In this document: piece by piece, positions 1-26,092 of the stretch
Numbering within the stretch: position 1 is the stretch's first letter
Layout: every line of letters starts with the position of its first letter
From: Stramenopiles sp. TOSAG23-6
Lineage: Eukaryota; Sar
Direction: 5' to 3'
Length of the DNA: 26,092 nt
Assembly (NCBI GenBank): GCA_900128565.1
Contig: LT635950.1
Span: forward strand, 1-26,092
Notes under the pieces: generated by a model
The model's input: the letters and a program-made list of their open reading frames with translations, nothing else
Told to the model about the DNA's origin: nothing
Database searches by the model: none
Program-made: the position numbers and the translations under genes

Positions 1-143
1 ACGTTTACGCACCATCAATTTCGAATGTTTTTTTCTAGATAATCCAAATCCGATGTATTTTTTTGTTTGGTTTTTGTACGTATTTTTTTATTATAAAAAT
101 TTGTACCTAACAAAAAAAAATGACATATTTTTTTACAAAACAT

Positions 144-2735
144 TGGAGCATTGCAAGTAAGACCACCAATTGATGTATCCGTGTGTACTCAAGAATATTT
201 ACATGACCTTTATAAAAAAGATGTTAAAGTGATGTATGTTTTCATAATGAATTTTAAATTTATTTTTTTTGGTACGAAATTTTGTACCTAAACAAAGAAT
301 TTTTTTTTTGGAATATATTTTCATAATGAATTTCAATTTTTTTTTTCCGTACAATTTTTTTTTGTACTTTATGAATTTCAAAATGTAAAACATATTTTTT
401 CAAAATACATGCAATGGTTGTCTTTTGGTACAAACACTTTTCTGCCTGTTCAATTAATTGATTTGGAGTTACCACTTAAATCTCTAGATGAAAAAGACTG
501 TTCTACTACGACTACTACTAATAATAATAATAAGAAGAAGAATACAAATGATTCTACTACTATTACTACTAATAATAATACTATTACTACTACTACTAAT
601 AATAATACAAATGATTCTACTACTATTACTAATAATAATAATAATAATACAAATGATTCTACTACTACTACTACTAATAATAATAATAATACAAAGGATA
701 ATATTTTCTTAACTAAGCAATTGAATTGCAACTTAAGCGTATCATGGGACAGTGCGACTGCATCATTATTACGATTTCTGGGAATAGCAAATAGTGATAA
801 AGAGCATGGTATTATTGATGATATAGTAAACAAAACTGTTGATCAAAACAAATTTCATAATTATTATTCTGAAAATCGGTATGAAAATATCTGGTCTAAA
901 AAGCTTCGTACCATTTTAGTACAGATAGCTTGTGAAGGATCAGTAACACATACTACAAAAGTAAATGCAGCTGTTCAAGCATCAGAATTATTAGCAGGTT
1001 TATGCCCTCCACTGATGGAACGTCAACACAATATAGGTGAAAAGAATACAAACCCTAACCCCAATCATTTATCATCAAATATACGAAATACTCCAAATAA
1101 TATTTCCATAAATTATTCACCAAGTACAGATTTTACTACAAATTCAACAAAATCTTTATTATTAACACCTTTTCCACAAGTTCGTATTGGTTCTCCATTA
1201 ACTAATAAAACGAATCGAAGACGATCAAAATCTTTAAATTCAGAAAATGATCATATTAAAAAAGAAAAAACAGTTACAAAATTTGATGATGATGATTTTT
1301 CATTATCGGATAGTGGTAACAAAACTAACCATCACGAAACACCTGTTCAGTTTAGTTTATTCACTAATGATAATAATGATAATTCTACCATGAATGATAA
1401 AAGTCGGAAACGGTTTAGCAGTGCAATGTCGAATATCTCAAATATGTCAATGGAAAGTGATGTAGTTCAAATTGCTAGAGAGCAGTACGTTTTCATCATA
1501 ANTATTTTTTTTNAGAGTCTCTATGCTTTTTCATCATTAATTTTAAATGTATTTATTCATTTTTTTATAACATGAACTTTGGAATGTAACATATTTTTTC
1601 ACAATACATATACAGTAAAGGTATCATCAATGAAGAGGAACTTGACCAAGTTGTAGAGGCAGACCGTCGATGTAGTATTAATGACAACATAGATGGAATG
1701 AAACCAATACACTTATTACATGAATCAGACCAATTAAATGAGTCTTTAGAAGTGAATAATAAATTTCAAAAAAACAATTTAAAATATGAAAAACAAATTG
1801 TACCACCGACTCCACCGCCAACAACAACACGTCCACCACCACCAAGACTTCAAAAAAATGGTATTTCTTTTTCTGGTATCACAATTCGATGGCCTGATGT
1901 TTTAGGTGCAACACAATATGAAGTTCAAATTGGTCATCGATATATGTACGTTTTTCATCATTTAATTTCAAATTTATTATTTTTGTACTGAATCCAAAAG
2001 AATTCAAAAGTTACAAAAACTAACAAATGTTCAATTTGACATTTTTTTCCATAGTTCATTGGGGGTTGGCGTACAGCTGGTGGGGTAAGTAGTATAACAG
2101 CTGCAGCATTTGATAAAGATGATGCAATGAATAATACAGAATTCGATACGAAGGATGATGATAATATATCGAATTCTTTAGTACATTCGCATACCACTCC
2201 AACACGAAATACAGAAAACATACAAAACACACAAAAAACTCTAAAAAACTCTAAAAAAAAAAGTTCGATTACAAGAGCAACCAGTATAACAATAAATACA
2301 TTTTTAATACGTGGTCACTTATTAGAACGAGGGCGTAAGTACATTTGTCGCGTACGAGCTTTTTCAGTATTAGGTGGTTGGAGTGATTATAGCCGAGCAA
2401 GTGACGTCATTGCTTATGAAGGTTTTCCAATACCTGCACCACCAGCTAAAACAATTATTATTCCAGTTTCTCCAAAGGATGACACTGAAAAAATTCAGAT
2501 TTCATTAGGTACGAAACTTCGTACATATCAGCCCAAGTCTAAAGATCAAACAGAAAATAAGAAAAATAATAAAGTAACAACTTCATCTGAAGAACAGGAT
2601 AGCAAAACCCTAACCATAAGACAAACAAATAATAACAGCCCGAATAAAGATGATTCAAATAGTATCAATATTTCAGGTGACGTAAGTGATAGCGGATATA
2701 GCGAATTTGATGAAGATGCAATTCTTGATTTTTAA
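144..2735 (+). CDS. PDZ/FN3 protein, 3' part (copy 1; upstream exons missing)
   Basis: Not recognised by name. Exons are 144-233, 411-1484, 1610-1945 and 2060-2735. Frames join exactly through introns of the GT...AT type, and the stop is TAA at 2733-2735. The first exon resumes mid-codon, so this is the downstream part of the gene whose 5' exons lie in 17753-16626. Visible parts in order are a conserved-looking segment (RPPIDVSVCTQEYLHDLY), a globular segment with WLSFGTNTF, a Thr/Asn tract encoded by triplet repeats, a second folded-looking segment (about 850-1020 bp), basic and Ser-rich linkers, a Pro-rich stretch, and a fibronectin-III-like domain. The FN3 evidence is strand motifs ITIRWPDV, YEVQIG and YICRVRAFSVLGGWSDYS, with a low-complexity insertion in the middle and an acidic C-terminus. 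FN3 domains usually bind proteins; the partner is unknown. Other copies are at 13889-17753 and 17897-20488. Confidence 0.75.
234..410 (+). other. Intron of PDZ/FN3 gene, GT...AT type, with internal second 5' end
   Basis: 177 bp, starting GTATGTTTTCATAATGAATT and ending CATATTTTTTCAAAATACAT. The joined frame is KKDVKVMQWLSFGTNTF. It carries the palindrome GGTACGAAATTTTGTACC (271-288), and a second copy of the 5' block, TTTTCATAATGAATTTCAAT, near 319-338, as if one element had inserted into or duplicated within another. Equivalents are at 16214-16390 and 17987-18163. Confidence 0.75.
500..697 (+). repeat. ACT/AAT triplet-repeat tract in coding sequence
   Basis: Alternating runs of ACT and AAT form four imperfect larger units, each headed by ACAAATGATTCT, and encode Thr/Asn tracts separated by NTNDSTT. 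The tract stays in frame, as expected for triplet expansion in an exon. Equivalents are at 15927-16124 and 18253-18450. Confidence 0.9.
1485..1609 (+). other. Intron of PDZ/FN3 gene containing the two Ns
   Basis: 125 bp, starting GTACGTTTTCATCATA and ending CATATTTTTTCACAATACAT. With the AT end the exons join as AREQYSKGIINEEELDQ. An AG acceptor seven bases later (ending ATACAG at 1616) is also in frame (AREHKGIINEE), so this intron alone does not decide the acceptor. The Ns are at 1502 and 1513, before a second TTTTTCATCATTAATTTTAA block. Equivalents are at 15015-15139 and 19238-19362. Confidence 0.65.
1946..2059 (+). other. Intron splitting the FN3-like domain
   Basis: 114 bp, starting GTACGTTTTTCATCATTTAA and ending TTTTTTTCCATAGTTCAT. 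The AT end gives QIGHRYIGGWRTAGG, which fits an FN3 strand. The earlier AG (CATAG, ending 2054) throws the frame and reaches a stop after eleven codons. It contains ACTAACAAATG, a good match to a branch-point box. Equivalents are at 14565-14678 and 19699-19812. Confidence 0.7.
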
Positions 2736-2925
2736 TACGCTTCTTAATAAAACAATATTATCAATATCATATGTATTTTATTAGTTTTATTATGGCTGCC
2801 CAATCAAAGGTATATATTACCTATGACCCACTCAATATATAACGTATATAACTCAAAATATAATAGTGAAAACTTTCTGTATAGAAATAAGTTTCTATGG
2901 AACCCTGTGTAAAATTGATAGTCAT
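2736..2925. other. Convergent 3' flanks
   Basis: 190 bp between the FN3 gene stop and the membrane-protein stop, holding poly(A) signals for both strands and otherwise AT-rich sequence without a frame. Confidence 0.6.
2746..2751 (+). promoter_or_regulatory. Poly(A) signal of the PDZ/FN3 gene
   Basis: AATAAA begins 11 bases after the stop codon of the FN3 gene. The oppositely oriented membrane-protein gene has two AATAAA at 2777-2782 and 2786-2791 (minus strand), so the two transcripts may overlap at their 3' ends. Confidence 0.55.
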
Positions 2926-3126
2926 TCAATAAGTGCTAAAGTTACGAAAGCGAAAGCTTGGCATTAAACTCTTTGGTTGTTGAGGCTCACTTTCATGAGC
3001 TTCTAATTTCTTTGTTTTAATTAATGTTTTCGTTTTGGAAGGTGTTTCCATCGAAACAATACCAAAATAAAGACCAATTCCTATTAAAACAACAATACTA
3101 AATACTAGTGTTTTAAGACCAAACAT
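2926..3126 (-). CDS. Small single-pass membrane protein, 66 aa
   Basis: I do not recognise the family. The frame runs from ATG (3126-3124) to TGA (2928-2926). After a short basic start (MFGLK) comes one hydrophobic segment, TLVFSIVVLIGIGLYFGIVS, long enough to span a membrane. It is followed by a Lys/Thr-rich hydrophilic tail with PSKTKTLIKTKKLE and a basic aromatic end (SFRFRNF). A type II or signal-anchor topology would be usual for this layout. The gene converges on the FN3 gene, and two AATAAA signals for it are on the minus strand at 2777-2782 and 2786-2791. It diverges from the epimerase gene. Support is the credible membrane segment, the ATG start and flanking signals; no homology is claimed. 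Copies are at 13498-13698 and 20679-20879. Confidence 0.5.
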   Translation of the reverse strand: MFGLKTLVFSIVVLIGIGLYFGIVSMETPSKTKTLIKTKKLEAHESEPQQPKSLMPSFRFRNFSTY

Positions 3127-3457
3127 TTTTTTGACACTATTCGTCAAGAAATTATTAGATGAATCTCTCTATTAGTAAAATTATTGTAGTATAGTAGTGT
3201 ATCAATATGTAATACAGTGTATAGTCGTATATATAGTAGTACTGAATAGTAGTATATAGGATGAGGTAGTCTTTAATTTAACGCCGAGAGAAAAAAGAAA
3301 ATCACCGGATCTGAAAAAATACTTTTTTAAATACGGACTAGGGTTAGGGCTGGCATTTCCACGAAAAAAGTTTCAAAAAACATCACGAGTGGGTACCCCG
3401 AAGTATACTGCAAATTGTGTACTAGCACTAAGTTTTCTAAAGTATTCGTTTACACAA
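3127..3457. promoter_or_regulatory. Shared upstream region, membrane-protein and epimerase genes
   Basis: 331 bp between divergent start codons. It holds TAGTAGTAT-type AT-rich simple sequence (about 3185-3260) and a CTAGGGTTAGGG telomere-like motif at 3338-3349, about 110 bp before the epimerase ATG. I see no further gene. Confidence 0.5.
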
Positions 3458-4620
3458 ATGGCATTACAATCAAATAAAATCTCAAAAGAGAATGATTCAT
3501 TACAATCAAATAAAATCTCAAAAGAGAATGATTCAAGTTTCCCACGTCCTCCTCTGCCACATGTAAAGTTACAAACTTCGTCTGCTACAGTCATAGTTTG
3601 CTTACATGGGGGTCATATTACCTCTTGGACGCTAAATGGCAGTGAAATTCTCTTTCTTAGTGAAAAAGCGGTGTTCAAACCTCCAAAAGCAATTCGTGGT
3701 GGAATACCTATATGCTTCCCTCAATTTAGTGATTGTGGACCAATGAAGAAAAGTCATGGGTTTGCACGGACGTTGACATGGACTCATGATAGTGACATCA
3801 TACAACATAGAAATGATAAAGACGAAATAACTTCATGTTCAACTTCGTTGTCTCTTTCCACATTTGTAAAAAGTTGGCCTTACAAGTATAACTTAAAAAT
3901 GCATATTTCAATTACTGAAAACACTTTACAACAAGATTTAATTGTAACAAACAATGGAAAACAAAAATTTGAGTTTACTGCTGTAATTTTACCTTCAATG
4001 ATTTTTTAATTTTTAATTTAAGATTTTCCAAATCTAATATTTCATATATTTTATTGGATACATCATTATCATACAGGCTCTTCATACATATTTTCGTCTA
4101 AACACCAATGCTACAAAGGTTAATGGATTACTTGGATGTACATATTTGGATTCCTTGGATAATCGAACACGAAAAACAGAAAGTGAAAAAGAAATTACAA
4201 TTGAAAATGAGATGGATCGGATTTATCTAAATGCACCTTCAAATATTATTTTACAAGACGATACAACTTGTATCAATGTGTTTTCGGATCATTCATCGAA
4301 TACAAATAATACACAAGGATTTCGTGATGGTGTATTGTGGAATCCTTGGATTGAAAAATCAAAACGCATGTTGGTTTTTCTTACATTTAAAATTATGGTT
4401 AGGGTTAGGGGTTACCCCTCATTTTTTTTTCTACGAAATTTTTACCTAACAAATTTTAAACTTTAAACATATTTTTGTACAAAACATGACTGATTTAAAT
4501 GATGATGAATATCATAATATGATATGTTACGAAGTCGCTCAAATAAATAATAAAATTGTGCTTGACGTTGGCGAAGAGTGGAAAGGATCACAAAAAATTG
4601 TTGTTTCGAAAGTGAAATAA
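3458..4620 (+). CDS. Glucose-6-phosphate 1-epimerase homologue (aldose-1-epimerase superfamily), 316 aa
   Basis: Predicted to interconvert the alpha and beta anomers of a hexose-6-phosphate, probably in the cytosol, as described for the YeaD/Ymr099c family. Exons are 3458-3982, 4077-4369 and 4488-4620; together they make 951 nt, exactly 317 codons, which fits the family's usual size. Family landmarks are all present: CLHGGHITSW (49-57), IRGGIPICFPQF (79-90), the catalytic-histidine motif SHGFAR (His100), ALHTYF after the first intron (second histidine, His178), VNGLLGCTYLD, WNPWIEKSKRM (263-273), and DDEYHNMICYE with the likely catalytic glutamate Glu288, followed by GEEWKGSQKI. I chose ATG 3458 because no in-frame ATG lies upstream in that open stretch and the conserved core starts near residue 36. 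Residues 3-26 are a perfect tandem duplication of a 12-residue unit. The first intron is GT-AG and the second is not. Confidence 0.9.
3464..3535 (+). repeat. Two perfect 36-bp tandem units in the epimerase N-terminus
   Basis: The unit starts TTACAATCAAATAAAATC and encodes LQSNKISKENDS twice, ahead of the conserved core, so the duplication should not affect the active site. Equivalents are at 13089-13160 and 21217-21288. Confidence 0.95.
3983..4076 (+). other. Conventional GT-AG intron in the epimerase gene
   Basis: 94 bp, starting GTAATTTTACC and ending ATCATACAG. It lies between FEFTA and ALHTYF, a block that is continuous in family members. It lacks the shared 5' and 3' blocks of the other introns. 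Equivalents are at 12548-12641 and 21736-21829. Confidence 0.9.
4370..4487 (+). other. Non-AG intron in the epimerase gene
   Basis: 118 bp between WNPWIEKSKR(M) and TDLNDDEYHNMICYE, both conserved in the family. It starts GTTGGTTTTTC and ends CATATTTTTGTACAAAACAT. The only AGs inside lie in the TTAGGG-like motif near 4400-4409 and are followed by stops. No AG exists between there and the conserved DDEY block, so homology itself requires a non-AG acceptor. Equivalents are at 12137-12254 and 22123-22240. Confidence 0.82.
4397..4418 (+). repeat. Telomere-like motif in an epimerase intron
   Basis: GGTTAGGGTTAGGGG is followed directly by TTACCCC, so the G-rich run partly folds back on itself. Other TTAGGG/CCCTAA-type matches in the block are at 1051-1062, 2604-2615, 3338-3349 and 8153-8164, and in the single-copy block near 17091-17099 and 17619-17627. 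Confidence 0.8.
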
Positions 4621-4624
4621 ATTT

Positions 4625-4745
4625 ATAATTTTTAAAGTCATAATATTGTGTTTTTTGAAAATATTTCATCCATTGGGAGGGTTACGTAGGGTTTTATAAT
4701 TTTTTAATCATTATATTGTGTTTTTTGAAAATATTTCATCCATTG
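4625..4745. repeat. 70-bp tandem duplication between convergent genes
   Basis: The sequence ATTGTGTTTTTTGAAAATAT starts at 4645 and again at 4715. The copy at 4695-4745 covers the last codons and stop of the VDFG-repeat gene (WMKYFQKTQYND), and the other copy repeats them beyond the stop. TTACGTAGGGTTTT-like telomeric sequence lies between the copies. Confidence 0.85.
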
Positions 4746-7263
4746 AGTTGAACAGCCTCGAGCATTATTGATAATTTTTGTCTTTTGTTTCGTTCTTTGA
4801 CGTTTATGTTTTGCATTTGCTAGTTTGATCTTTGCTAAATTATCATCAAATTTGCTTTTTTTATTTCGTGTTTTTTTACTTTGTCGTGGTACTGCCGGAT
4901 GTCGACTTTTTAAATTATGTGGTACTAAAATTACCTTTTTGTTTTTTTTCTCTTTTCCATTTTGATTTGATGTACTATTTAATGTACTATTTAATTCTCT
5001 ACGAATTGAAGTCTTGGTGTCGTATTTCGTTTTTTCTTCATCGCTCTCATCGTCTGTGACTAATACTTCTTTCAAACCTCGATCAAATAATTCCGATTTC
5101 CTTTCAAATTCTTTTTGTCGTGCAACTCGACGAGGATGCGGTGCTAACTTAGATCCAAGTTGATTTGCTAATAAATAAACATCACCACGCTCCCCACTGC
5201 CAAATGTACAACTTGGTGCTCTTTTAAATCGGGAGTCAAAATGTGAAACAACTTTATCAGGAAAATTTGCAGTTGTTGTTTCAGAATATGATGTAGACAC
5301 ACATATTTTGTGAAAAAATATGCCAAAAAAAAACAAAAATTCGTTAGGTATATAAAATTTGATACAAAAAAAATAATTTCGAAATTCATAATAAAAACAT
5401 ACCCATAGAATTATGAATTACTCGATATAAATCGTCTCTATCTGCAGCACCAAAATCATGATCACATGAAGATTTTCGACGTTTTGCTGCTGCATTATCA
5501 AAAGTTGATGTTACAATTGTAGAGTCGTGCTGATCACTTTTATCTATAAACTGAACAGTATTTAAAACATTTGACAATTTCTCACAATCTTCTCGACTTG
5601 ATTTTCCAAAATCAACACGAGAGGGTGTTCGAAAGCGTGAGTTATGTGTAGTGTAAAATACTTTATGGTAATCAATACTATCATTCACTTGAGACATATC
5701 CTGTGGTAATAAAGCACCTAAATCATTGTGTCGTTTATAAATATCAGATCGTTTTGATTTTCCAAAATCAACAGACGGTGGATTAGGTACACGTGAATTA
5801 TGTTTGGTATAGAATACCTTATTATAATCAACAGAATCACCAAACTCTGACATATCACGAGGTCGAAGTCCACCAAGCAGATTTGCTTGTTTTAACATAT
5901 CATCTCTTGTTGAAGCACCAAAATCAACAGACGGTGGATTAGGTACACGTGAATTATGTTTGGTATAGAATACCTTATTATAATCAACAGAATCACCAAA
6001 CTCTGACATATCACGAGGTCGAAGTCCACCAAGTAGATTTGCATGTTTTAACATCTCTTCTCGGCTTGAAGCACCAAAATCAACACGTGAGGGTGTTCGA
6101 AAACGTGAGTTATGTTCCGTTGTAAACGCTTTATTATAATCTATGGAGTCATTGAACTCTGACATATCTCTAGGTAGTAATGCTCCTAAATCATTATTAC
6201 GAAATTTTATGTCGTCTCGTTGTGAAACACCAAAATCAACACGAGAGGGTGTTCGAAAGCGTGAGTTATGTGTAGTGTAAAATACTTTATGGTAATCAAC
6301 ACTATCATTCACTTGAGACTTATCCTGTGGTAATAAAGCACCTAAATCATTGTGTCGTTTATAAATATCAGATCTTTTTGATTTTCCAAAATCAACAGAT
6401 GGTGGATTAGGTACACGTGAATTATGTTTTGTGTAGAATACCTTATTATAGTCAACTGAATCAATTTCGTCGGATTTATCAATCACACGAGCACCAGGCA
6501 TGCCTGTGGCTAATTTCGCTGCAGAAATTCTTGAAGATGCTCCAAAATCAACACGTGATGGTGTTCGAAAACGTGAGTTATGTTCCGTTGTAAACGCTTT
6601 ATTATAATCTATGGAATCCCCGAATTCTGACATATCTCTAGGTAATGTTTGTTCTAATTCATTGTGTCGTTTATAAATATCAGATCGTTTTGATTTTCCA
6701 AAATCAACAGACGGTGGATTAGGTACACGTGAATTATGTTTGGTATAGAATACCTTATTATAATCAACAGAATCACCAAACTCTGACATATCACGAGGTC
6801 GAAGTCCACCAAGCAGATTTGCTTGTTTTAACATATCATCTCTTGTTGAAGCACCAAAATCAACAGACGGTGGATTAGGTACACGTGAATTATGTTTGGT
6901 ATAGAATACCTTATTATAATCAACAGAATCACCAAACTCTGACATATCACGAGGTCGAAGTCCACCAAGCAGATTTGCATGTTTTAACATATCATCTCGA
7001 CTAGAGGCACCAAAATCCACAGAAGGGGCATTCGGTGTTCGAGATTCTGAATATGTCACTCGTTTTTTGGTGTTTTTGGAAGAAGAGGCTTGTTCTGAAA
7101 AAAAATGTTTTAACTTTTCATCTGCCAACTGTCCTTTTCGTGTTCTTTCATCCAGAGATTTTTTGTAATTGGTTTGTGCAGACTTTGTACGCCTTGCTAT
7201 TGACTCTCTTTCATGCCTTGGGAATGTTTTGTTTGTATCTGGTGACGAATTTGGGCGATTCAT
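4704..7263 (-). CDS. VDFG-repeat protein, 819 aa
   Basis: I do not recognise this protein. Exons run 7263-5403 and 5302-4704 and total 2460 nt (820 codons with stop). After a basic, Ser-rich N-terminus (1-75) come about twelve copies of a 52-residue unit. Core signatures are DSVDYNKVFYTKHNSR, then V-P-N-P-P-S-VDFG or F-R-T-P-S-R-VDFG, a short S-x-R-x-D segment, and LGGLRPRDMSEFG. The last, degenerate unit (CTFGSGERGDVYLLANQLG, about 652-670) lies after the intron. The C-terminus is acidic (TDDESDEE) and then very basic, possibly nucleic-acid- or microtubule-binding. No signal peptide or membrane segment is seen. Regular Tyr/Phe/Pro-rich repeats of this sort resemble scaffold or cytoskeletal array proteins, but that is inference. 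It diverges from the lysine-rich gene across 286 bp and converges on the epimerase gene. Confidence 0.8.
5270..7035 (-). repeat. 156-bp coding repeat array of the VDFG protein
   Basis: About twelve in-frame units of 52 codons. Segments 6659-6968 and 5723-6032 are almost identical at the DNA level (one difference seen) at a spacing of 936 bp, six units, indicating a recent multi-unit duplication or conversion within the gene. Confidence 0.9.
5303..5402 (-). other. Intron of the VDFG-repeat gene, GT...AT type
   Basis: 100 bp on the minus strand, starting GTATGTTTTTATTATGAATT and ending CATATTTTTTCACAAAATAT. It contains ATATACCTAACGAATTT. The join ATG-G|GT-GTG restores the frame (HNSMGVSTSYSETT). 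No AG occurs for more than 50 bases downstream. Equivalents are at 11222-11321 and 23056-23155. Confidence 0.78.
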
Positions 7264-7549
7264 TTCGTACTTTTTCCGTGAACACAGAGGGAAATAATAG
7301 CACTTGGTGCCAGCAGAAGTAATTTTTTTTTTGAAACGTTATCCTTATTTTTTAACGTACGATACAATTTTTAGATTTCGATTGATTTCGTGTTTTCAAA
7401 CATCATTTTTGTGACTGAGTCTTTCTTTGACGTGTCCGGTGGTGGCCAAACACAAAACAATGTCTACTTTTTAGTCCACAATATCATGATCATACTACGT
7501 TGTACATTGTTCAAAGGTAATTAACATAATTGTATTTAACACAACAATT
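7264..7549. promoter_or_regulatory. Shared upstream region, VDFG-repeat and lysine-rich genes
   Basis: 286 bp between divergent ATG codons. It has two T-rich runs, a GTCCGGTGGTGGCC segment that is GC-rich for this DNA, and ATATCATGATCAT. No gene is seen and no specific promoter element can be assigned. Confidence 0.45.
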
Positions 7550-8298
7550 ATGTTGGATATCCGTTTGTATAGTAAAAAAAAGAAAAAAAAGAAACGTGGA
7601 GCAAGAGGAAAGAAGAAAAAAACAGGTCCAAAGTCAAAAAGTCAACAAAACTCTCAAATTGTATCCCAGCAACATCCTGCAAACAAAACAGCATTAATTT
7701 CAGATCACATTTTACCATTACATAATTTATATGATGATAAACATGTGTGTTCTAAACCCAATTCAAATATATATTTGGTTGATAAAAACAAAATCGTGTC
7801 CAAAGCAGTAAAAAAAGAGAGTTTTTCAAAGAATCAAACCTCTGTAAAAAAAGAGAGTTTTTCAAAGAATCAAACCTCAGTAAAAAAAGAGAGTTTTTCA
7901 AAGAATCAAACCTCCTTGACTGAAAAAAAAACATATATTGTCTAGAGAGGAACCTTCTTATTCTACTTCATCATATTCTCTCGACTGGAAAACAACACAT
8001 AGTATATCTCAAAAACATCACTATAACTGGGCATCCAAACACAAGATATTACATACTATTGACACTATTGACAACAAAACTGTAGATTTGTTGAACGAGA
8101 ATAAATGGCATTACGAAAGTAATGCACCTAAAAATACAATTGTAATTGAAAAGCCTAACCCTATCGATGTTGATGTATTTGATACTGATTTAGAAGTAAT
8201 TGGTGATACACTACGTACATTAACACAACAAGATTCATATTGTTTGCCTTCTTTGTTATTACAAGATTGTTCGTTAGGTACAAAATTTGGTACAGATT

Positions 8299-8337
<39 letters not shown>

Positions 8338-8339
8338 AA
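7550..8339 (+). CDS. Lysine-rich protein with probable frameshift, 3' end missing
   Basis: Not recognised. The first frame opens at ATG 7550 (MLDIRLYS), then a run of Lys/Arg/Gly (KKKKKKKRGARGKKKK), a Gln/Ser linker and three perfect copies of VKKESFSKNQTS. It ends at TAG 7943-7945, just after a run of nine A (7923-7931). The overlapping +1 frame is open from 7920 and continues with SREEPSYSTSSYSLDWKTTH to the end of the block, with unbiased, protein-like composition. Dropping one A would join them into about 260 residues. The second frame contains SLGTKFGT, encoded by the dispersed TTAGGTAC element, and then runs into the 35-A tract as poly-Lys and a TAA. That end is probably not the real one, since the sequence breaks there in every copy. 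The basic N-terminus suggests nuclear or nucleolar location, by composition only. Confidence 0.5.
7808..7915 (+). repeat. Three 36-bp tandem units in the lysine-rich gene
   Basis: The period is 36 bp (starts 7808, 7844, 7880), encoding VKKESFSKNQTS three times and differing only in the last bases. Equivalents are at 8709-8816 and 25561-25668. Confidence 0.95.
8285..8339. other. Asymmetric centre of the palindrome, with poly-A
   Basis: Arm identity stops at 8284/8340. The 55 bases between are ATTTGGTACAGATTC, 35 consecutive A (8300-8334), then TTTAA. The centre is flanked by an inverted 15-base pair, TTCGTTAGGTACAAA on the left (8270-8284) and TTTGTACCTAACGAA on the right (8340-8354). That motif also occurs in introns throughout the window. 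The last base of the window (26092) is the copy-3 equivalent of 8339, so copy 3 stops exactly where copy 1 folds back. Confidence 0.9.
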
Positions 8340-9074
8340 TTTGTACCTAACGAACAATCTTGTAATAACAAAGAAGGCAAACAATATGAATCTTGTTGTG
8401 TTAATGTACGTAGTGTATCACCAATTACTTCTAAATCAGTATCAAATACATCAACATCGATAGGGTTAGGCTTTTCAATTACAATTGTATTTTTAGGTGC
8501 ATTACTTTCGTAATGCCATTTATTCTCGTTCAACAAATCTACAGTTTTGTTGTCAATAGTGTCAATAGTATGTAATATCTTGTGTTTGGATGCCCAGTTA
8601 TAGTGATGTTTTTGAGATATACTATGTGTTGTTTTCCAGTCGAGAGAATATGATGAAGTAGAATAAGAAGGTTCCTCTCTAGACAATATATGTTTTTTTT
8701 TCAGTCAAGGAGGTTTGATTCTTTGAAAAACTCTCTTTTTTTACTGAGGTTTGATTCTTTGAAAAACTCTCTTTTTTTACAGAGGTTTGATTCTTTGAAA
8801 AACTCTCTTTTTTTACTGCTTTGGACACGATTTTGTTTTTATCAACCAAATATATATTTGAATTGGGTTTAGAACACACATGTTTATCATCATATAAATT
8901 ATGTAATGGTAAAATGTGATCTGAAATTAATGCTGTTTTGTTTGCAGGATGTTGCTGGGATACAATTTGAGAGTTTTGTTGACTTTTTGACTTTGGACCT
9001 GTTTTTTTCTTCTTTCCTCTTGCTCCACGTTTCTTTTTTTTCTTTTTTTTACTATACAAACGGATATCCAACAT
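8336..9074 (-). CDS. Lysine-rich protein, copy 2 (frameshifted, truncated at the palindrome centre)
   Basis: The mirror of 7550-8284, with the first frame 9074-8679 and the second 8686-8336. Here the second frame crosses into the palindrome centre and stops after SLGTN (TAA at 8338-8336), before any poly-Lys. The different ending from the copy at 7550 is produced only by the fold-back join, so neither C-terminus should be trusted. Confidence 0.45.
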
Positions 9075-9360
9075 AATTGTTGTGTTAAATACAATTATGT
9101 TAATTACCTTTGAACAATGTACAACGTAGTATGATCATGATATTGTGGACTAAAAAGTAGACATTGTTTTGTGTTTGGCCACCACCGGACACGTCAAAGA
9201 AAGACTCAGTCACAAAAATGATGTTTGAAAACACGAAATCAATCGAAATCTAAAAATTGTATCGTACGTTAAAAAATAAGGATAACGTTTCAAAAAAAAA
9301 ATTACTTCTGCTGGCACCAAGTGCTATTATTTCCCTCTGTGTTCACGGAAAAAGTACGAA

Positions 9361-11920
9361 ATGAATCGCCCAAATTCGTCACCAGATACAAACAAAACAT
9401 TCCCAAGGCATGAAAGAGAGTCAATAGCAAGGCGTACAAAGTCTGCACAAACCAATTACAAAAAATCTCTGGATGAAAGAACACGAAAAGGACAGTTGGC
9501 AGATGAAAAGTTAAAACATTTTTTTTCAGAACAAGCCTCTTCTTCCAAAAACACCAAAAAACGAGTGACATATTCAGAATCTCGAACACCGAATGCCCCT
9601 TCTGTGGATTTTGGTGCCTCTAGTCGAGATGATATGTTAAAACATGCAAATCTGCTTGGTGGACTTCGACCTCGTGATATGTCAGAGTTTGGTGATTCTG
9701 TTGATTATAATAAGGTATTCTATACCAAACATAATTCACGTGTACCTAATCCACCGTCTGTTGATTTTGGTGCTTCAACAAGAGATGATATGTTAAAACA
9801 AGCAAATCTGCTTGGTGGACTTCGACCTCGTGATATGTCAGAGTTTGGTGATTCTGTTGATTATAATAAGGTATTCTATACCAAACATAATTCACGTGTA
9901 CCTAATCCACCGTCTGTTGATTTTGGAAAATCAAAACGATCTGATATTTATAAACGACACAATGAATTAGAACAAACATTACCTAGAGATATGTCAGAAT
10001 TCGGGGATTCCATAGATTATAATAAAGCGTTTACAACGGAACATAACTCACGTTTTCGAACACCATCACGTGTTGATTTTGGAGCATCTTCAAGAATTTC
10101 TGCAGCGAAATTAGCCACAGGCATGCCTGGTGCTCGTGTGATTGATAAATCCGACGAAATTGATTCAGTTGACTATAATAAGGTATTCTACACAAAACAT
10201 AATTCACGTGTACCTAATCCACCATCTGTTGATTTTGGAAAATCAAAAAGATCTGATATTTATAAACGACACAATGATTTAGGTGCTTTATTACCACAGG
10301 ATAAGTCTCAAGTGAATGATAGTGTTGATTACCATAAAGTATTTTACACTACACATAACTCACGCTTTCGAACACCCTCTCGTGTTGATTTTGGTGTTTC
10401 ACAACGAGACGACATAAAATTTCGTAATAATGATTTAGGAGCATTACTACCTAGAGATATGTCAGAGTTCAATGACTCCATAGATTATAATAAAGCGTTT
10501 ACAACGGAACATAACTCACGTTTTCGAACACCCTCACGTGTTGATTTTGGTGCTTCAAGCCGAGAAGAGATGTTAAAACATGCAAATCTACTTGGTGGAC
10601 TTCGACCTCGTGATATGTCAGAGTTTGGTGATTCTGTTGATTATAATAAGGTATTCTATACCAAACATAATTCACGTGTACCTAATCCACCGTCTGTTGA
10701 TTTTGGTGCTTCAACAAGAGATGATATGTTAAAACAAGCAAATCTGCTTGGTGGACTTCGACCTCGTGATATGTCAGAGTTTGGTGATTCTGTTGATTAT
10801 AATAAGGTATTCTATACCAAACATAATTCACGTGTACCTAATCCACCGTCTGTTGATTTTGGAAAATCAAAACGATCTGATATTTATAAACGACACAATG
10901 ATTTAGGTGCTTTATTACCACAGGATATGTCTCAAGTGAATGATAGTATTGATTACCATAAAGTATTTTACACTACACATAACTCACGCTTTCGAACACC
11001 CTCTCGTGTTGATTTTGGAAAATCAAGTCGAGAAGATTGTGAGAAATTGTCAAATGTTTTAAATACTGTTCAGTTTATAGATAAAAGTGATCAGCACGAC
11101 TCTACAATTGTAACATCAACTTTTGATAATGCAGCAGCAAAACGTCGAAAATCTTCATGTGATCATGATTTTGGTGCTGCAGATAGAGACGATTTATATC
11201 GAGTAATTCATAATTCTATGGGTATGTTTTTATTATGAATTTCGAAATTATTTTTTTTGTATCAAATTTTATATACCTAACGAATTTTTGTTTTTTTTTG
11301 GCATATTTTTTCACAAAATATGTGTGTCTACATCATATTCTGAAACAACAACTGCAAATTTTCCTGATAAAGTTGTTTCACATTTTGACTCCCGATTTAA
11401 AAGAGCACCAAGTTGTACATTTGGCAGTGGGGAGCGTGGTGATGTTTATTTATTAGCAAATCAACTTGGATCTAAGTTAGCACCGCATCCTCGTCGAGTT
11501 GCACGACAAAAAGAATTTGAAAGGAAATCGGAATTATTTGATCGAGGTTTGAAAGAAGTATTAGTCACAGACGATGAGAGCGATGAAGAAAAAACGAAAT
11601 ACGACACCAAGACTTCAATTCGTAGAGAATTAAATAGTACATTAAATAGTACATCAAATCAAAATGGAAAAGAGAAAAAAAACAAAAAGGTAATTTTAGT
11701 ACCACATAATTTAAAAAGTCGACATCCGGCAGTACCACGACAAAGTAAAAAAACACGAAATAAAAAAAGCAAATTTGATGATAATTTAGCAAAGATCAAA
11801 CTAGCAAATGCAAAACATAAACGTCAAAGAACGAAACAAAAGACAAAAATTATCAATAATGCTCGAGGCTGTTCAACTCAATGGATGAAATATTTTCAAA
11901 AAACACAATATAATGATTAA
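9361..11920 (+). CDS. VDFG-repeat protein, copy 2
   Basis: Same coding sequence as 7263-4704 on the opposite strand, and easiest to read here because it is on the plus strand. Exons are 9361-11221 and 11322-11920. The repeat period is visible directly: the phrase GAGTTTGGTGATTCTG starts at 9685, 9841 and 10621, giving a 156-bp period and a 936-bp (six-unit) higher-order period. The intron 11222-11321 starts GTATGT and ends AAAATAT. Confidence 0.8.
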
Positions 11921-12003
11921 AAAATTATAAAACCCTACGTAACCCTCCCAATGGATGAAATATTTTCAAAAAACACAATATTATGACTTTAAAAATTATA
12001 AAT

Positions 12004-13166
12004 TTATTTCACTTTCGAAACAACAATTTTTTGTGATCCTTTCCACTCTTCGCCAACGTCAAGCACAATTTTATTATTTATTTGAGCGACTTCGTAACAT
12101 ATCATATTATGATATTCATCATCATTTAAATCAGTCATGTTTTGTACAAAAATATGTTTAAAGTTTAAAATTTGTTAGGTAAAAATTTCGTAGAAAAAAA
12201 AATGAGGGGTAACCCCTAACCCTAACCATAATTTTAAATGTAAGAAAAACCAACATGCGTTTTGATTTTTCAATCCAAGGATTCCACAATACACCATCAC
12301 GAAATCCTTGTGTATTATTTGTATTCGATGAATGATCCGAAAACACATTGATACAAGTTGTATCGTCTTGTAAAATAATATTTGAAGGTGCATTTAGATA
12401 AATCCGATCCATCTCATTTTCAATTGTAATTTCTTTTTCACTTTCTGTTTTTCGTGTTCGATTATCCAAGGAATCCAAATATGTACATCCAAGTAATCCA
12501 TTAACCTTTGTAGCATTGGTGTTTAGACGAAAATATGTATGAAGAGCCTGTATGATAATGATGTATCCAATAAAATATATGAAATATTAGATTTGGAAAA
12601 TCTTAAATTAAAAATTAAAAAATCATTGAAGGTAAAATTACAGCAGTAAACTCAAATTTTTGTTTTCCATTGTTTGTTACAATTAAATCTTGTTGTAAAG
12701 TGTTTTCAGTAATTGAAATATGCATTTTTAAGTTATACTTGTAAGGCCAACTTTTTACAAATGTGGAAAGAGACAACGAAGTTGAACATGAAGTTATTTC
12801 GTCTTTATCATTTCTATGTTGTATGATGTCACTATCATGAGTCCATGTCAACGTCCGTGCAAACCCATGACTTTTCTTCATTGGTCCACAATCACTAAAT
12901 TGAGGGAAGCATATAGGTATTCCACCACGAATTGCTTTTGGAGGTTTGAACACCGCTTTTTCACTAAGAAAGAGAATTTCACTGCCATTTAGCGTCCAAG
13001 AGGTAATATGACCCCCATGTAAGCAAACTATGACTGTAGCAGACGAAGTTTGTAACTTTACATGTGGCAGAGGAGGACGTGGGAAACTTGAATCATTCTC
13101 TTTTGAGATTTTATTTGATTGTAATGAATCATTCTCTTTTGAGATTTTATTTGATTGTAATGCCAT
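12004..13166 (-). CDS. Glucose-6-phosphate 1-epimerase homologue, copy 2
   Basis: Exons 13166-12642, 12547-12255 and 12136-12004 mirror the copy at 3458-4620, with intact frames and all conserved motifs (SHGFAR, ALHTYF, WNPW, ICYE). There is no sequence difference to suggest independent evolution of this copy. Confidence 0.88.
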
Positions 13167-13497
13167 TTGTGTAAACGAATACTTTAGAAAACTTAGTGCT
13201 AGTACACAATTTGCAGTATACTTCGGGGTACCCACTCGTGATGTTTTTTGAAACTTTTTTCGTGGAAATGCCAGCCCTAACCCTAGTCCGTATTTAAAAA
13301 AGTATTTTTTCAGATCCGGTGATTTTCTTTTTTCTCTCGGCGTTAAATTAAAGACTACCTCATCCTATATACTACTATTCAGTACTACTATATATACGAC
13401 TATACACTGTATTACATATTGATACACTACTATACTACAATAATTTTACTAATAGAGAGATTCATCTAATAATTTCTTGACGAATAGTGTCAAAAAA

Positions 13498-13698
13498 ATG
13501 TTTGGTCTTAAAACACTAGTATTTAGTATTGTTGTTTTAATAGGAATTGGTCTTTATTTTGGTATTGTTTCGATGGAAACACCTTCCAAAACGAAAACAT
13601 TAATTAAAACAAAGAAATTAGAAGCTCATGAAAGTGAGCCTCAACAACCAAAGAGTTTAATGCCAAGCTTTCGCTTTCGTAACTTTAGCACTTATTGA
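13498..13698 (+). CDS. Small single-pass membrane protein, copy 2
   Basis: Mirror of 3126-2926: ATG at 13498, TGA at 13696-13698, 66 residues with one hydrophobic segment. In this orientation it lies head-to-head with the epimerase copy at 13166 and tail-to-tail with the PDZ/FN3 gene ending at 13889. Confidence 0.5.
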   Translation: MFGLKTLVFSIVVLIGIGLYFGIVSMETPSKTKTLIKTKKLEAHESEPQQPKSLMPSFRFRNFSTY

Positions 13699-13888
13699 AT
13701 GACTATCAATTTTACACAGGGTTCCATAGAAACTTATTTCTATACAGAAAGTTTTCACTATTATATTTTGAGTTATATACGTTATATATTGAGTGGGTCA
13801 TAGGTAATATATACCTTTGATTGGGCAGCCATAATAAAACTAATAAAATACATATGATATTGATAATATTGTTTTATTAAGAAGCGTA

Positions 13889-16800
13889 TTAAAAATCAAG
13901 AATTGCATCTTCATCAAATTCGCTATATCCGCTATCACTTACGTCACCTGAAATATTGATACTATTTGAATCATCTTTATTCGGGCTGTTATTATTTGTT
14001 TGTCTTATGGTTAGGGTTTTGCTATCCTGTTCTTCAGATGAAGTTGTTACTTTATTATTTTTCTTATTTTCTGTTTGATCTTTAGACTTGGGCTGATATG
14101 TACGAAGTTTCGTACCTAATGAAATCTGAATTTTTTCAGTGTCATCCTTTGGAGAAACTGGAATAATAATTGTTTTAGCTGGTGGTGCAGGTATTGGAAA
14201 ACCTTCATAAGCAATGACGTCACTTGCTCGGCTATAATCACTCCAACCACCTAATACTGAAAAAGCTCGTACGCGACAAATGTACTTACGCCCTCGTTCT
14301 AATAAGTGACCACGTATTAAAAATGTATTTATTGTTATACTGGTTGCTCTTGTAATCGAACTTTTTTTTTTAGAGTTTTTTAGAGTTTTTTGTGTGTTTT
14401 GTATGTTTTCTGTATTTCGTGTTGGAGTGGTATGCGAATGTACTAAAGAATTCGATATATTATCATCATCCTTCGTATCGAATTCTGTATTATTCATTGC
14501 ATCATCTTTATCAAATGCTGCAGCTGTTATACTACTTACCCCACCAGCTGTACGCCAACCCCCAATGAACTATGGAAAAAAATGTCAAATTGAACATTTG
14601 TTAGTTTTTGTAACTTTTGAATTCTTTTGGATTCAGTACAAAAATAATAAATTTGAAATTAAATGATGAAAAACGTACATATATCGATGACCAATTTGAA
14701 CTTCATATTGTGTTGCACCTAAAACATCAGGCCATCGAATTGTGATACCAGAAAAAGAAATACCATTTTTTTGAAGTCTTGGTGGTGGTGGACGTGTTGT
14801 TGTTGGCGGTGGAGTCGGTGGTACAATTTGTTTTTCATATTTTAAATTGTTTTTTTGAAATTTATTATTCACTTCTAAAGACTCATTTAATTGGTCTGAT
14901 TCATGTAATAAGTGTATTGGTTTCATTCCATCTATGTTGTCATTAATACTACATCGACGGTCTGCCTCTACAACTTGGTCAAGTTCCTCTTCATTGATGA
15001 TACCTTTACTGTATATGTATTGTGAAAAAATATGTTACATTCCAAAGTTCATGTTATAAAAAAATGAATAAATACATTTAAAATTAATGATGAAAAAGCA
15101 TAGAGACTCTNAAAAAAAATANTTATGATGAAAACGTACTGCTCTCTAGCAATTTGAACTACATCACTTTCCATTGACATATTTGAGATATTCGACATTG
15201 CACTGCTAAACCGTTTCCGACTTTTATCATTCATGGTAGAATTATCATTATTATCATTAGTGAATAAACTAAACTGAACAGGTGTTTCGTGATGGTTAGT
15301 TTTGTTACCACTATCCGATAATGAAAAATCATCATCATCAAATTTTGTAACTGTTTTTTCTTTTTTAATATGATCATTTTCTGAATTTAAAGATTTTGAT
15401 CGTCTTCGATTCGTTTTATTAGTTAATGGAGAACCAATACGAACTTGTGGAAAAGGTGTTAATAATAAAGATTTTGTTGAATTTGTAGTAAAATCTGTAC
15501 TTGGTGAATAATTTATGGAAATATTATTTGGAGTATTTCGTATATTTGATGATAAATGATTGGGGTTAGGGTTTGTATTCTTTTCACCTATATTGTGTTG
15601 ACGTTCCATCAGTGGAGGGCATAAACCTGCTAATAATTCTGATGCTTGAACAGCTGCATTTACTTTTGTAGTATGTGTTACTGATCCTTCACAAGCTATC
15701 TGTACTAAAATGGTACGAAGCTTTTTAGACCAGATATTTTCATACCGATTTTCAGAATAATAATTATGAAATTTGTTTTGATCAACAGTTTTGTTTACTA
15801 TATCATCAATAATACCATGCTCTTTATCACTATTTGCTATTCCCAGAAATCGTAATAATGATGCAGTCGCACTGTCCCATGATACGCTTAAGTTGCAATT
15901 CAATTGCTTAGTTAAGAAAATATTATCCTTTGTATTATTATTATTATTAGTAGTAGTAGTAGTAGAATCATTTGTATTATTATTATTATTATTAGTAATA
16001 GTAGTAGAATCATTTGTATTATTATTAGTAGTAGTAGTAATAGTATTATTATTAGTAGTAATAGTAGTAGAATCATTTGTATTCTTCTTCTTATTATTAT
16101 TATTAGTAGTAGTCGTAGTAGAACAGTCTTTTTCATCTAGAGATTTAAGTGGTAACTCCAAATCAATTAATTGAACAGGCAGAAAAGTGTTTGTACCAAA
16201 AGACAACCATTGCATGTATTTTGAAAAAATATGTTTTACATTTTGAAATTCATAAAGTACAAAAAAAAATTGTACGGAAAAAAAAAATTGAAATTCATTA
16301 TGAAAATATATTCCAAAAAAAAAATTCTTTGTTTAGGTACAAAATTTCGTACCAAAAAAAATAAATTTAAAATTCATTATGAAAACATACATCACTTTAA
16401 CATCTTTTTTATAAAGGTCATGTAAATATTCTTGAGTACACACGGATACATCAATTGGTGGTCTTACTTGCAATGCTCCAATGTTTTGTAAAAAAATATG
16501 TCATTTTTTTTTGTTAGGTACAAATTTTTATAATAAAAAAATACGTACAAAAACCAAACAAAAAAATACATCGGATTTGGATTATCTAGAAAAAAACATT
16601 CGAAATTGATGGTGCGTAAACGTACATAGATGCTAATGCTATGGCTGTAGGTAATGTAATTGGAATACATCCAGTGATATTCATCATAGTTGAACTATTT
16701 GTTTTTGAATGTATCGTTTTAGATGTAGATCCCAAATTCAACATGCTTGAACGTCTTAATTTTGGTGTTGTATTCTTACTTGTATTTAACATACTTGAAC

Positions 16801-17753
16801 TTCTTGGTTTTGGTGTTGTAGTATTAGTATTAGTATAATGTGAAAATGTATCATCATTGGTATGCAAATTCGATATTAAGTCACTATTGAATTTTGTAAC
16901 TAAAGATTTTTTTGTACCTAATGAATTTCGAATTTGTTGTGACTCTTCACTTAAACCTGCTCGTCGCATTGCTAACATCTCCATAGCATCTCGCATTTGT
17001 TTAAGCTCAATCTCTTGTGCAGCAATTCGATTTTCTTGAGCAATAATGCGCAATTGTAAAGCTTTTTGCATTTGACACGTGTCATTACTATTAGGGTTAT
17101 CGATGTTTGAGTCAGGAGAATGAAATGAAAGTTGAGAATTTCGAGAGTACCGTGGTGATATTGGTGGTGTTGTTGGTGGTGATGGCATTTGTTTCATTAT
17201 CTCTTGTGGTGACTTATTTAGTGTATTTCGTGTTTTATACGACATCGTAGAATCATTGTCCATCATTAAAGTAGTAAATTCAATAGTCCGTTGATACATA
17301 TTTCGTTCATGTATTGTGGAAAAATATGTTGTATTTGAAAATTGTCAATAAAAAATCCTTAGGTACAAAATGTGGCGCAAAAATATAAATAAAAATTGTT
17401 ACGTACGAAATTTACGAAATTTCATACGAAAAATACATAAATTTAAAATTCATGATGAAAACGTACATGTAAATACTCCACAATATCTGCAAATTTCCAA
17501 TGTAAAACTTTTGTACTATCAATTGTTTGTATCCACATTCCAGGTGATACACCCTTTTTCTTTAACTCATTAATTCTATTGAGTACAGTAGTCACTGTGT
17601 TATTTCGTGTTTTATTACTAGGGTTAGGATTTCCCACAATTTTTGTAGGCGTTTTTTTGCCTTCATTAAAATTTTCAATCTGCGCTCCTCTTCTATGCAA
17701 ACCACACTTTAATTGCAAACCCAATGCACCAGAAGGGACATTAACAATAACAG
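13889..17753 (-). CDS. PDZ / coiled-coil / FN3 protein, most complete copy (5' partial)
   Basis: Exons on the minus strand are 17753-17467, 17308-16626, 16480-16391, 16213-15140, 15014-14679 and 14564-13889. Counting from the first full codon, 3144 nt encode 1047 residues plus stop. Residues 1-110 look like a PDZ domain: the carboxylate-binding-loop-like VPSGALGLQL, then GVSPGMWIQTID and FADIVEYLHERNMYQRTIEF, with an Asn/Lys-rich loop between. Next are a Ser/Pro region with PPISPRYS (about 140-160), a predicted coiled coil (about 174-222, QENRIAAQEIELKQMRDAMEML), the RPPIDV segment (about 329), a Thr/Asn tract (384-450), a Pro-rich stretch (about 776-789) and an FN3-like domain (about 794-943). 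There is no Met before the PDZ loop, and in-frame TAA appears just across the 17753/17754 join, so 5' exons are missing. The architecture suggests a scaffold or adaptor; its partners are unknown. Confidence 0.78.
16481..16625 (-). other. Intron of PDZ/FN3 gene at the A/U border, GT...AT type
   Basis: The only complete copy of this 145-bp intron. It starts GTACGTTTAC and ends TTTTTTACAAAACAT. Joining exon end ...GCATCTAT to TGGAGCATTG gives an open frame (ALASIGALQVRPPIDV). The nearby AG dinucleotides (after TGG and after TTGCA) both lead to an in-frame TGA. Truncated copies lacking the first two bases are at 1-143 and 17754-17896. Confidence 0.75.
16624..17753. other. Single-copy block U between oppositely oriented A copies
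   Basis: This is the only sequence in the window present once (1130 bp). It is fully occupied by two upstream exons of the PDZ/FN3 gene on the minus strand (17753-17467 and 17308-16626), the intron between them and the first two bases of the next intron. Its left border continues the gene into copy 2. Its right border cuts the PDZ exon and joins it to the outer edge of copy 3, so that border is probably a chimeric join. Confidence 0.85.
17309..17466 (-). other. Intron between PDZ and coiled-coil exons, GT...AT type
   Basis: 158 bp, starting GTACGTTTTCATCATGAATT and ending CATATTTTTCCACAATACAT. The joined frame reads DIVEYLHERNMYQRTIEF, a plausible end of a PDZ domain. No AG occurs downstream close to the junction. 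The internal box is TTTTGTACCTAAGG. Confidence 0.75.
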
Positions 17754-17896
17754 ACGTTTACGCACCATCAATTTCGAATGTTTTTTTCTAGATAATCCAA
17801 ATCCGATGTATTTTTTTGTTTGGTTTTTGTACGTATTTTTTTATTATAAAAATTTGTACCTAACAAAAAAAAATGACATATTTTTTTACAAAACAT

Positions 17897-20488: not shown

Positions 20489-20678
20489 TACGCTTCTTAA
20501 TAAAACAATATTATCAATATCATATGTATTTTATTAGTTTTATTATGGCTGCCCAATCAAAGGTATATATTACCTATGACCCACTCAATATATAACGTAT
20601 ATAACTCAAAATATAATAGTGAAAACTTTCTGTATAGAAATAAGTTTCTATGGAACCCTGTGTAAAATTGATAGTCAT

Positions 20679-20879
20679 TCAATAAGTGCTAAAGTTACGA
20701 AAGCGAAAGCTTGGCATTAAACTCTTTGGTTGTTGAGGCTCACTTTCATGAGCTTCTAATTTCTTTGTTTTAATTAATGTTTTCGTTTTGGAAGGTGTTT
20801 CCATCGAAACAATACCAAAATAAAGACCAATTCCTATTAAAACAACAATACTAAATACTAGTGTTTTAAGACCAAACAT
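20679..20879 (-). CDS. Small single-pass membrane protein, copy 3
   Basis: Direct repeat of the frame at 2926-3126 (ATG at 20879, stop at 20681-20679), with the same hydrophobic segment and the same neighbours. Confidence 0.5.
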   Translation of the reverse strand: MFGLKTLVFSIVVLIGIGLYFGIVSMETPSKTKTLIKTKKLEAHESEPQQPKSLMPSFRFRNFSTY

Positions 20880-21210
20880 TTTTTTGACACTATTCGTCAA
20901 GAAATTATTAGATGAATCTCTCTATTAGTAAAATTATTGTAGTATAGTAGTGTATCAATATGTAATACAGTGTATAGTCGTATATATAGTAGTACTGAAT
21001 AGTAGTATATAGGATGAGGTAGTCTTTAATTTAACGCCGAGAGAAAAAAGAAAATCACCGGATCTGAAAAAATACTTTTTTAAATACGGACTAGGGTTAG
21101 GGCTGGCATTTCCACGAAAAAAGTTTCAAAAAACATCACGAGTGGGTACCCCGAAGTATACTGCAAATTGTGTACTAGCACTAAGTTTTCTAAAGTATTC
21201 GTTTACACAA

Positions 21211-22373: not shown

Positions 22374-22456
22374 ATTTATAATTTTTAAAGTCATAATATT
22401 GTGTTTTTTGAAAATATTTCATCCATTGGGAGGGTTACGTAGGGTTTTATAATTTT

Positions 22457-25016: not shown

Positions 25017-25302
25017 TTCGTACTTTTTCCGTGAACACAGAGGGAAATAATAGCACTTGGTGCCAGCAGAAGTAATTTTTTTTTTGAAACGTTATCCTTA
25101 TTTTTTAACGTACGATACAATTTTTAGATTTCGATTGATTTCGTGTTTTCAAACATCATTTTTGTGACTGAGTCTTTCTTTGACGTGTCCGGTGGTGGCC
25201 AAACACAAAACAATGTCTACTTTTTAGTCCACAATATCATGATCATACTACGTTGTACATTGTTCAAAGGTAATTAACATAATTGTATTTAACACAACAA
25301 TT

Positions 25303-26051: not shown

Positions 26052-26090
<39 letters not shown>

Positions 26091-26092
26091 AA
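25303..26092 (+). CDS. Lysine-rich protein, copy 3 (frameshifted, cut by window end)
   Basis: Repeats 7550-8339: first frame 25303-25698, second frame through the poly-A to the terminal TAA, which is also the last codon of the window. The run of nine A at the frame switch (25676-25684) has the same length as in the other copies. Confidence 0.45.

Follow-up and report, generated by a model that had tools for sequence, protein, structure and literature searches.

Introner-like GT...AT introns in a probable MAST-3 stramenopile, with an acceptor apparently taken from a duplicated target dinucleotide

The window analysed here, a stretch of 26,092 nucleotides from one contig of the partial genome of an uncultured marine protist, holds three genes interrupted by seven segments that begin with GT and end with AT. 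AG at intron ends is among the most constant signals of eukaryotic genes, and an earlier note on this DNA had proposed that the seven segments are introns, resembling mobile introner elements, that end in AT instead; all seven are present, with the coordinates and ends it had given. We consider it very probable that a short mobile element (an introner) gave rise to these segments, that they act as spliceosomal introns, and that their non-AG acceptor comes from duplicated target sequence. The features of the window are as follows.

234..410, plus strand: GT...AT intron of 177 nt with two 5'-like starts (possibly composite); frame kept in the 1047-codon frame; copies at 16390-16214 (minus) and 17987-18163 (plus)
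1485..1609, plus strand: GT...AT intron of 125 nt with two N inside; exon end CA, intron end AT; copies at 15139-15015 (minus) and 19238-19362 (plus)
1946..2059, plus strand: GT...AT intron of 114 nt; copies at 14678-14565 (minus) and 19699-19812 (plus)
3458..4620, plus strand: glucose-6-phosphate 1-epimerase-like gene with an Aldose_epim domain, in three exons
3983..4076, plus strand: canonical GT...AG intron of the epimerase-like gene, an internal control; its junction residues align with a solved hexose-6-phosphate mutarotase, and a public protein shares the junction
4370..4487, plus strand: GT...AT intron of 118 nt in the epimerase-like gene; its removal restores the motif WNPWIEKSKRMTDLNDDEYHNMICYE
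4446..4450, plus strand: CTAAC, the branch-point-like motif of intron 4370-4487, as read from the sequence and from family statistics
5303..5402, minus strand: GT...AT intron of 100 nt in the 819-aa frame; exon end GG, intron end AT
16481..16625, minus strand: GT...AT intron of 145 nt, present in full here and incomplete in its copy at position 1
17309..17466, minus strand: GT...AT intron of 158 nt, with zero mismatches to the 5' block

Five of these introns (17466-17309, 16625-16481, 234-410, 1485-1609, and 1946-2059) belong to one gene, which is read on the minus strand. The coding total of this gene, 3144 nt, runs from stop to stop and comprises 1047 amino acids and a stop codon (2931 nt from the first Met). 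The one-intron gene totals 2460 nt, an open reading frame of 819 amino acids and a stop with its ATG at 7263, and the epimerase-like gene totals 951 nt, or 316 amino acids and a stop. The three totals in the earlier note are correct, with two qualifications: 951 is reached only when the canonical GT-AG intron 3983-4076, which it had not listed, is removed as well, and 3144 is a total without a defined start. The contig itself is a perfect fold-back, in which 1-8284 recurs in reverse-complemented form at 8340-16623, and it also contains a direct repeat, 17754-26092 being a second copy of 1-8339. The unique sequence amounts to about 9.5 kb and carries all three genes, and the fold-back and direct repeat are probably an artefact of whole-genome amplification or of assembly. 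At the hinge of the fold-back (8284-8340), a long poly-A lies beside a piece of the intron core in antisense orientation.

The conserved 5' and 3' blocks by which the earlier note had characterized the segments recur throughout the genome that was searched (8,027,113 bases in 408 contigs). The 3' block, with up to three mismatches allowed, has 1481 matches (755 forward and 726 reverse), as compared with 11 when its pattern is reversed, and the 5' block has 643 against 5, which excludes chance resemblance; these counts do not equal independent insertions, since some contigs are duplicated or folded back. Two contig pairs (C13/C14 and C64/C69 of G000) have pattern matches at parallel positions and are possibly alleles or redundant contigs. 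A first profile, applied to 22 stretches totaling 192 kb (20 regions fetched for a block match and two stretches of the window), gave 156 matches, of which 69 were full length; open frames on both sides were clear in 57 of these, and 53 of the 57 kept the frame when cut as GT...AT. A second profile, applied to all loci fetched, gave 138 usable distinct full copies. Under a looser rule, by which the frame joined by removal must stay open for 75 nt or more to either side, 126 of the 138 qualify, and these form the main set described below. This set is enriched for TT and GT ends, part of the loci having been fetched by end sequence, and the 86 full copies of the 22 stretches, chosen independently of their last two bases, are for this reason given beside it. 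Near-identical copies are found in different genes: among 119 copies with a full-length neighbor, 17 are at least 90% identical to it and 7 at least 95%. Such copies at unrelated sites speak for what appears to be a fairly recent spread, and introns of the GT...AT kind may number in the thousands across the complete genome.

At their 5' ends, 115 of the 126 copies start with GT, and 92 start with GTACGT or GTATGT. CTAAC is present in 102 copies, compared with 6 after shuffling, and the motif starts at a median of 42 nt before the intron end. The ends themselves are AT in 94 copies, TT in 16, GT in 11, AC in 3, and GA and AG in one each; for the 86 copies of the 22 stretches, the corresponding tally is AT 75, GT 4, and TT 3, with AC, TG, AG, and CA once each. 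The exact string TATTTTTTCACAATAC was also tallied by the two bases after it. With AT, BT, or AV in that place it occurs 216 times in the genome, 137 times with AT, 63 with BT, and 16 with AV, and the dinucleotides are AT 137, GT 24, TT 37, CT 2, AA 7, AC 4, and AG 5 (these counts include duplicated contigs, cover only the three kinds of ending named, and are tallied from individual rows for the non-AT split). Set beside the canonical U2 type of intron, the GT donor is there, and the AG acceptor is found in only 1 of the 126 copies and 5 of the 216 exact matches. Gaps in the coding score did not provide an unbiased count of canonical and AT introns, as they do not separate the acceptor types.

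Removal of the segments from GT through AT keeps the reading frame in 103 of the 113 copies with clear frames (64/71 in the 22 stretches and 39/42 in other loci, retrieved with the end sequence of one copy). Intron lengths modulo 3 are distributed 44/35/47 in the 126 copies, with phases of 50, 38, and 38. If left in the transcript, 111 of the 126 would disrupt the frame or introduce a stop. As measured by open-frame length, the sense strand fits better than the antisense strand in 66 of 69 copies. Because elimination from DNA would not respect the strand of the gene, we infer that the elements must be removed from RNA. The genome-wide family, the restoration of frame, and the sense orientation together support the introner-like reading with GT...AT ends that the earlier note had put forward.

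Conserved proteins locate the boundary exactly. In the epimerase-like gene, removing 4370-4487 gives WNPWIEKSKRMTDLNDDEYHNMICYE, which aligns to WNPWIEKSQGMADF...YQQMICIE of a solved hexose-6-phosphate mutarotase. A public epimerase protein, EukProt GSMAST32.ASY1.ANO1.1479.1, is identical at 303 of 316 residues, and every difference falls at intron 4370-4487, where the public model reads through the donor and loses the conserved DDEYHNMICYE. Boundary models can be discriminated by the 41 of 126 copies in which the exon and intron dinucleotides differ. For example, in a MATE transporter gene (L023; exon GT, intron end AT), the GT...AT cut yields the Trp-Trp of plant DETOXIFICATION 14 and the NT...AC cut yields a stop. 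In a Dbp5 helicase gene (L004; exon GG, intron end AT), the GT...AT cut yields a Gly that aligns to the Gly of Dbp5, and cuts shifted by one base or by two bases give Val and Met, respectively. For both genes, the alignments place the predicted cut exactly at GT|AT. In addition, of eight spliced proteins that were correctly typed, seven have a Pfam match spanning the junction; the exception is a PP1-like phosphatase, whose domain ends before the junction.

The origin of the AT end is suggested by the exon that precedes it. In 85 of the 126 copies, the last two bases of the intron are the same as the last two bases of the exon, whereas permutation gives a mean of 54.9 and a maximum of 69 in 10,000 permutations; the agreement is 51/86 in the copies of the 22 stretches. 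Position -2 accounts for the excess (92 agreements against 60.3 expected); at position -1, exon and intron alike nearly always have T, and at position -3 there is no excess (31 against 34.6). Of the 27 distinct copies with a GT or TT end, 23 have the matching dinucleotide in the exon, where 2.5 would be expected. A subfamily of 12 close copies at different loci has 10 that agree, and most of these copies share the preceding string, with the last two bases tracking the exon. We read the repeated dinucleotide as a putative 2-bp target-site duplication at an NT target. Where the two dinucleotides differ, AT is kept in the intron only in 32 of 41 copies and in the exon only in 6 of 41, a ratio that is approximate given that fetched loci were partly selected by end type, and in the 22 stretches AT stands at 75/86 intron ends as against 47/86 exon ends. 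The intronic AT is steadier than the adjoining coding bases, as expected if AT serves splicing, and it looks to be held by selection. Agreement is not clearly commoner in copies with a close relative (32/45) than in those without one (53/81), and age is not linkable to loss of the duplication.

These patterns fit a mechanism in which the element, GTAYGT...CTAAC...TTTTTTCACAATAC, would bring its own 5' splice site and branch-point-like motif. Its insertion would duplicate two bases of the target, usually AT but also GT or TT, with T nearly always last; one copy of the dinucleotide would stay as the end of the upstream exon, and the other would become the last two bases of the intron. Cutting the pre-mRNA before GT and after the duplicated NT would then restore the original mRNA without an acceptor AG. 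Removal from RNA would be the work of the major spliceosome, the duplication would originate in transposition, and the 3' end would be recognized independently of AG. As to how this recognition might operate, we lean toward the view that the major spliceosome of this lineage no longer needs AG: the transposon end TTTTTTCACAATAC and the branch motif would fix the cut two bases past the element, the target dinucleotide would become the acceptor, and selection would since have favored AT.

Several results weigh against this account. Ten of the 113 clear-frame copies break the frame. Two of these are the window introns 234-410 and 1485-1609, which may be composite copies (the latter, besides its two N, also contains a second 5'-like start); both were delimited too short by the profile and keep the frame at full length, and the other eight breaks are unexplained. 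Some members of the family seem to end in AG, for example at L025 (minus strand, 8731), L019 (plus strand, 2394), and L012 (plus strand, 3210). The 5' half of these introns is as in the rest of the family, so that acceptors appear to be mixed within one family, and AG is probably still accepted as well, because such relatives exist. In the consensus, the ends are GTAY/ATAC and the inner arms (ATTTCAAAT and ATTTGAAAT) are complementary; the arms of one copy pair no better with each other than swapped arms do (7.03 against 6.99), and a hairpin model was rejected on this result. The spliced piece of an aspartyl protease, used as a query for proteins derived from complementary DNA (cDNA), had 180 candidates and no match among them. 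The spliced Dbp5 piece had a top match of 38% identity, and none of the best 120 of 1127 matches exceeded 51%; since all those listed are at or below this level, no product of the source organism was recognized. Searches for the U2 and U6 small nuclear RNAs gave no match, and, having had no positive control, do not indicate absence. Finally, GT...AT and NT...AC predict identical mRNA in 85 of the 126 copies, and by codon usage GT...AT beats NT...AC in 16 of the 41 discriminating copies and loses in 25. We set codon usage aside as a judge among GT-AT, TG-CA, and AT-AC, as it was uninformative, if slightly against GT-AT relative to AT-AC.

The last two points would suit introns of the AT-AC type, which would start at the exon-side NT and end at the element's own ATAC, leaving the downstream NT in the exon. 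Where NT is AT, their AT...AC ends would also resemble a known class of introns. However, such a cut puts a stop in place of the conserved Trp of the MATE transporter, Met in place of the conserved Gly of Dbp5, and a stop in L053. It would also make the downstream NT, which is AT in 75/86 copies, more uniform than the upstream NT (47/86), which is odd for coding bases. The donor of U12 introns is ATATCCTT, which is not among the commonest starts of the family, where the donor is GTAYGT. Taken together, we find AT-AC introns improbable. Removal without the spliceosome, as proposed for the nonconventional introns of euglenids that are bounded by direct repeats, is in our estimation highly unlikely. 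It would accommodate the direct dinucleotide repeats at both ends and the complementary inner arms of the consensus, yet the pairing of these arms is not copy-specific, and the U1-compatible GTAYGT and branch-like CTAAC are unlike the euglenid class in the description drawn on here (PMC12621601).

We attach almost no weight to the proposal that these are ordinary GT-AG introns spliced to a nearby AG, with the AT ends an accident of where the frame reopens. The epimerase-like gene does have a canonical GT-AG intron, some family members apparently end in AG, and in 49 of the 126 copies a frame-neutral AG lies no more than 30 nt from the end; on the other hand, 77 have no such AG, 108 lack any AG in their last 30 nt, homology sets the boundary at AT in several genes (epimerase, MATE, and Dbp5), and the public epimerase model, which reads through the donor, loses conserved residues. 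Excision at the DNA level, in the way that the internal eliminated sequences of ciliates or miniature inverted-repeat transposable elements (MITEs) would be removed, unspliced, from a working genome, fits short and precisely removable elements with a 2-bp duplicated end dinucleotide, but is just as hard to credit given that the sense strand fits better in nearly all copies, when gene strand is irrelevant to DNA excision, and that the elements have a splice-donor-like start and a branch-like motif.

If the segments are indeed introner-founded spliceosomal introns, their nearest parallels lie in several other eukaryotes. Introners have been surveyed in Micromonas, Aureococcus, and others (Gozashti et al. 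2022, PMC9860276), where they are likewise present in many similar copies as introns of unrelated genes, with some families having target-site duplications and splice sites partly recruited from the duplicated target. They differ in that the survey's test for such duplications treats GY/AG as the core splice nucleotides, whereas here NT would be recruited without AG and the duplication is of 2 bp. In Amoebophrya (PMC7789003), the introners described likewise have ends that are non-canonical, with direct repeats spanning the boundaries, inverted repeats, and a proposed transposon-like spread; however, its introns have no clear terminal dinucleotides, direct repeats of 3-5 nt, and hairpins thought to join the exons, in contrast to the GTAYGT donor, CTAAC, 2-bp repeat, lack of a copy-specific hairpin signal, and probable stramenopile host of the present family. 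Fritillaria borealis (PMC13326754) is reported to have non-AG 3' intron ends, an AU 3' splice site included, and a divergent U2AF; in the present family, the donor stays GT and the acceptor would come from target duplication. The nonconventional introns of euglenids and diplonemids (PMC12621601) are alike in the short direct repeats at their ends and in a suggested MITE origin, but those of euglenids are described without U1 pairing, while the present family has a U1-compatible donor and a branch-like motif.

The earlier note had named Amoebophrya and Fritillaria as precedents for introners and non-canonical introns, rightly according to the same two sources, and had suggested that the end structure may be new. 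This suggestion survives in part: non-canonical introner ends (PMC7789003) and an AU 3' site (PMC13326754) have been published, and the GT-AT combination was not met in the titles and abstract openings of the literature searched, among which there were no GT-AT introners and no MAST-3 introns. Introners and non-canonical ends are known, then, and what is new, within those titles and abstract openings, is a GT...AT introner family with an acceptor apparently derived from a 2-bp target duplication. Beyond the earlier note, our analysis brings out the genome scale of the family, its probable host, a canonical GT-AG intron that co-exists with it, the branch-like CTAAC, and a 2-bp duplication that would explain the end.

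The source is probably a MAST-3 stramenopile, judging by one protein, the public epimerase with 303/316 identical residues. We read its label, GSMAST32, as referring to one of the MAST-3 assemblies that Seeleuthner et al. 2018 obtained from single cells. A dinoflagellate (Amoebophrya-like) origin was considered and rejected: CCATTTTGGCTCAAG, the core of the dinoflagellate spliced leader, has zero exact matches in the partial genome, and the closest protein is MAST-labeled. Carriage by viruses was likewise rejected, exact ATATTTTTTCACAATACAT having 0 matches in viral contigs, a set from which records near the source genome were possibly excluded. Seeleuthner et al. 2018 give MAST-3A and MAST-3F assemblies of 18.9 and 21.1 Mb and state that MAST-3F had too few complete protein matches for gene-finder training (PMC5778133). 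In Labarre et al. 2021, the word 'intron' occurs nowhere in the main text (PMC8163842).

With respect to the machinery, a Prp8 PROCN domain lies at G000:C84:15334-16551 in one unbroken frame of 2021 codons, which shows this spliceosome gene to be apparently intact in the source genome. The Prp8 gene seems to be without an introner over the 2021-codon stretch. A single DDE_3 transposase match was found, at G000:C298:6479-6913 in an open frame of 432 aa, and this transposase is a possible candidate for the mobilizer of the introns.

One mobile family that apparently departs from the AG rule at hundreds of sites, in a genome that also has at least one ordinary GT-AG intron, would offer a direct test of how the spliceosome chooses 3' ends and of how transposons become introns. 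In addition, proteins of this genome can be corrupted by gene finders bound to AG, the window epimerase as publicly modeled being an example, and such errors in gene models may depress the apparent completeness of uncultured genomes of this kind.

Two further features of the window concern repetitive sequence. Telomere-like CCCTAAC/TTAGGG runs are found in an exon at 1050-1064, where they encode NPNP, and in an intron at 4398-4412; NPNP stretches in proteins of L011, L013, and L025, which were viewed as proteins only, suggest telomere-like runs there too. On the minus strand, 5588-7021 encodes a protein in which a unit of about 52 residues (GDSVDYNKVFYTKHNSR...) is repeated in tandem, and the DNA of this region is strongly repetitive.

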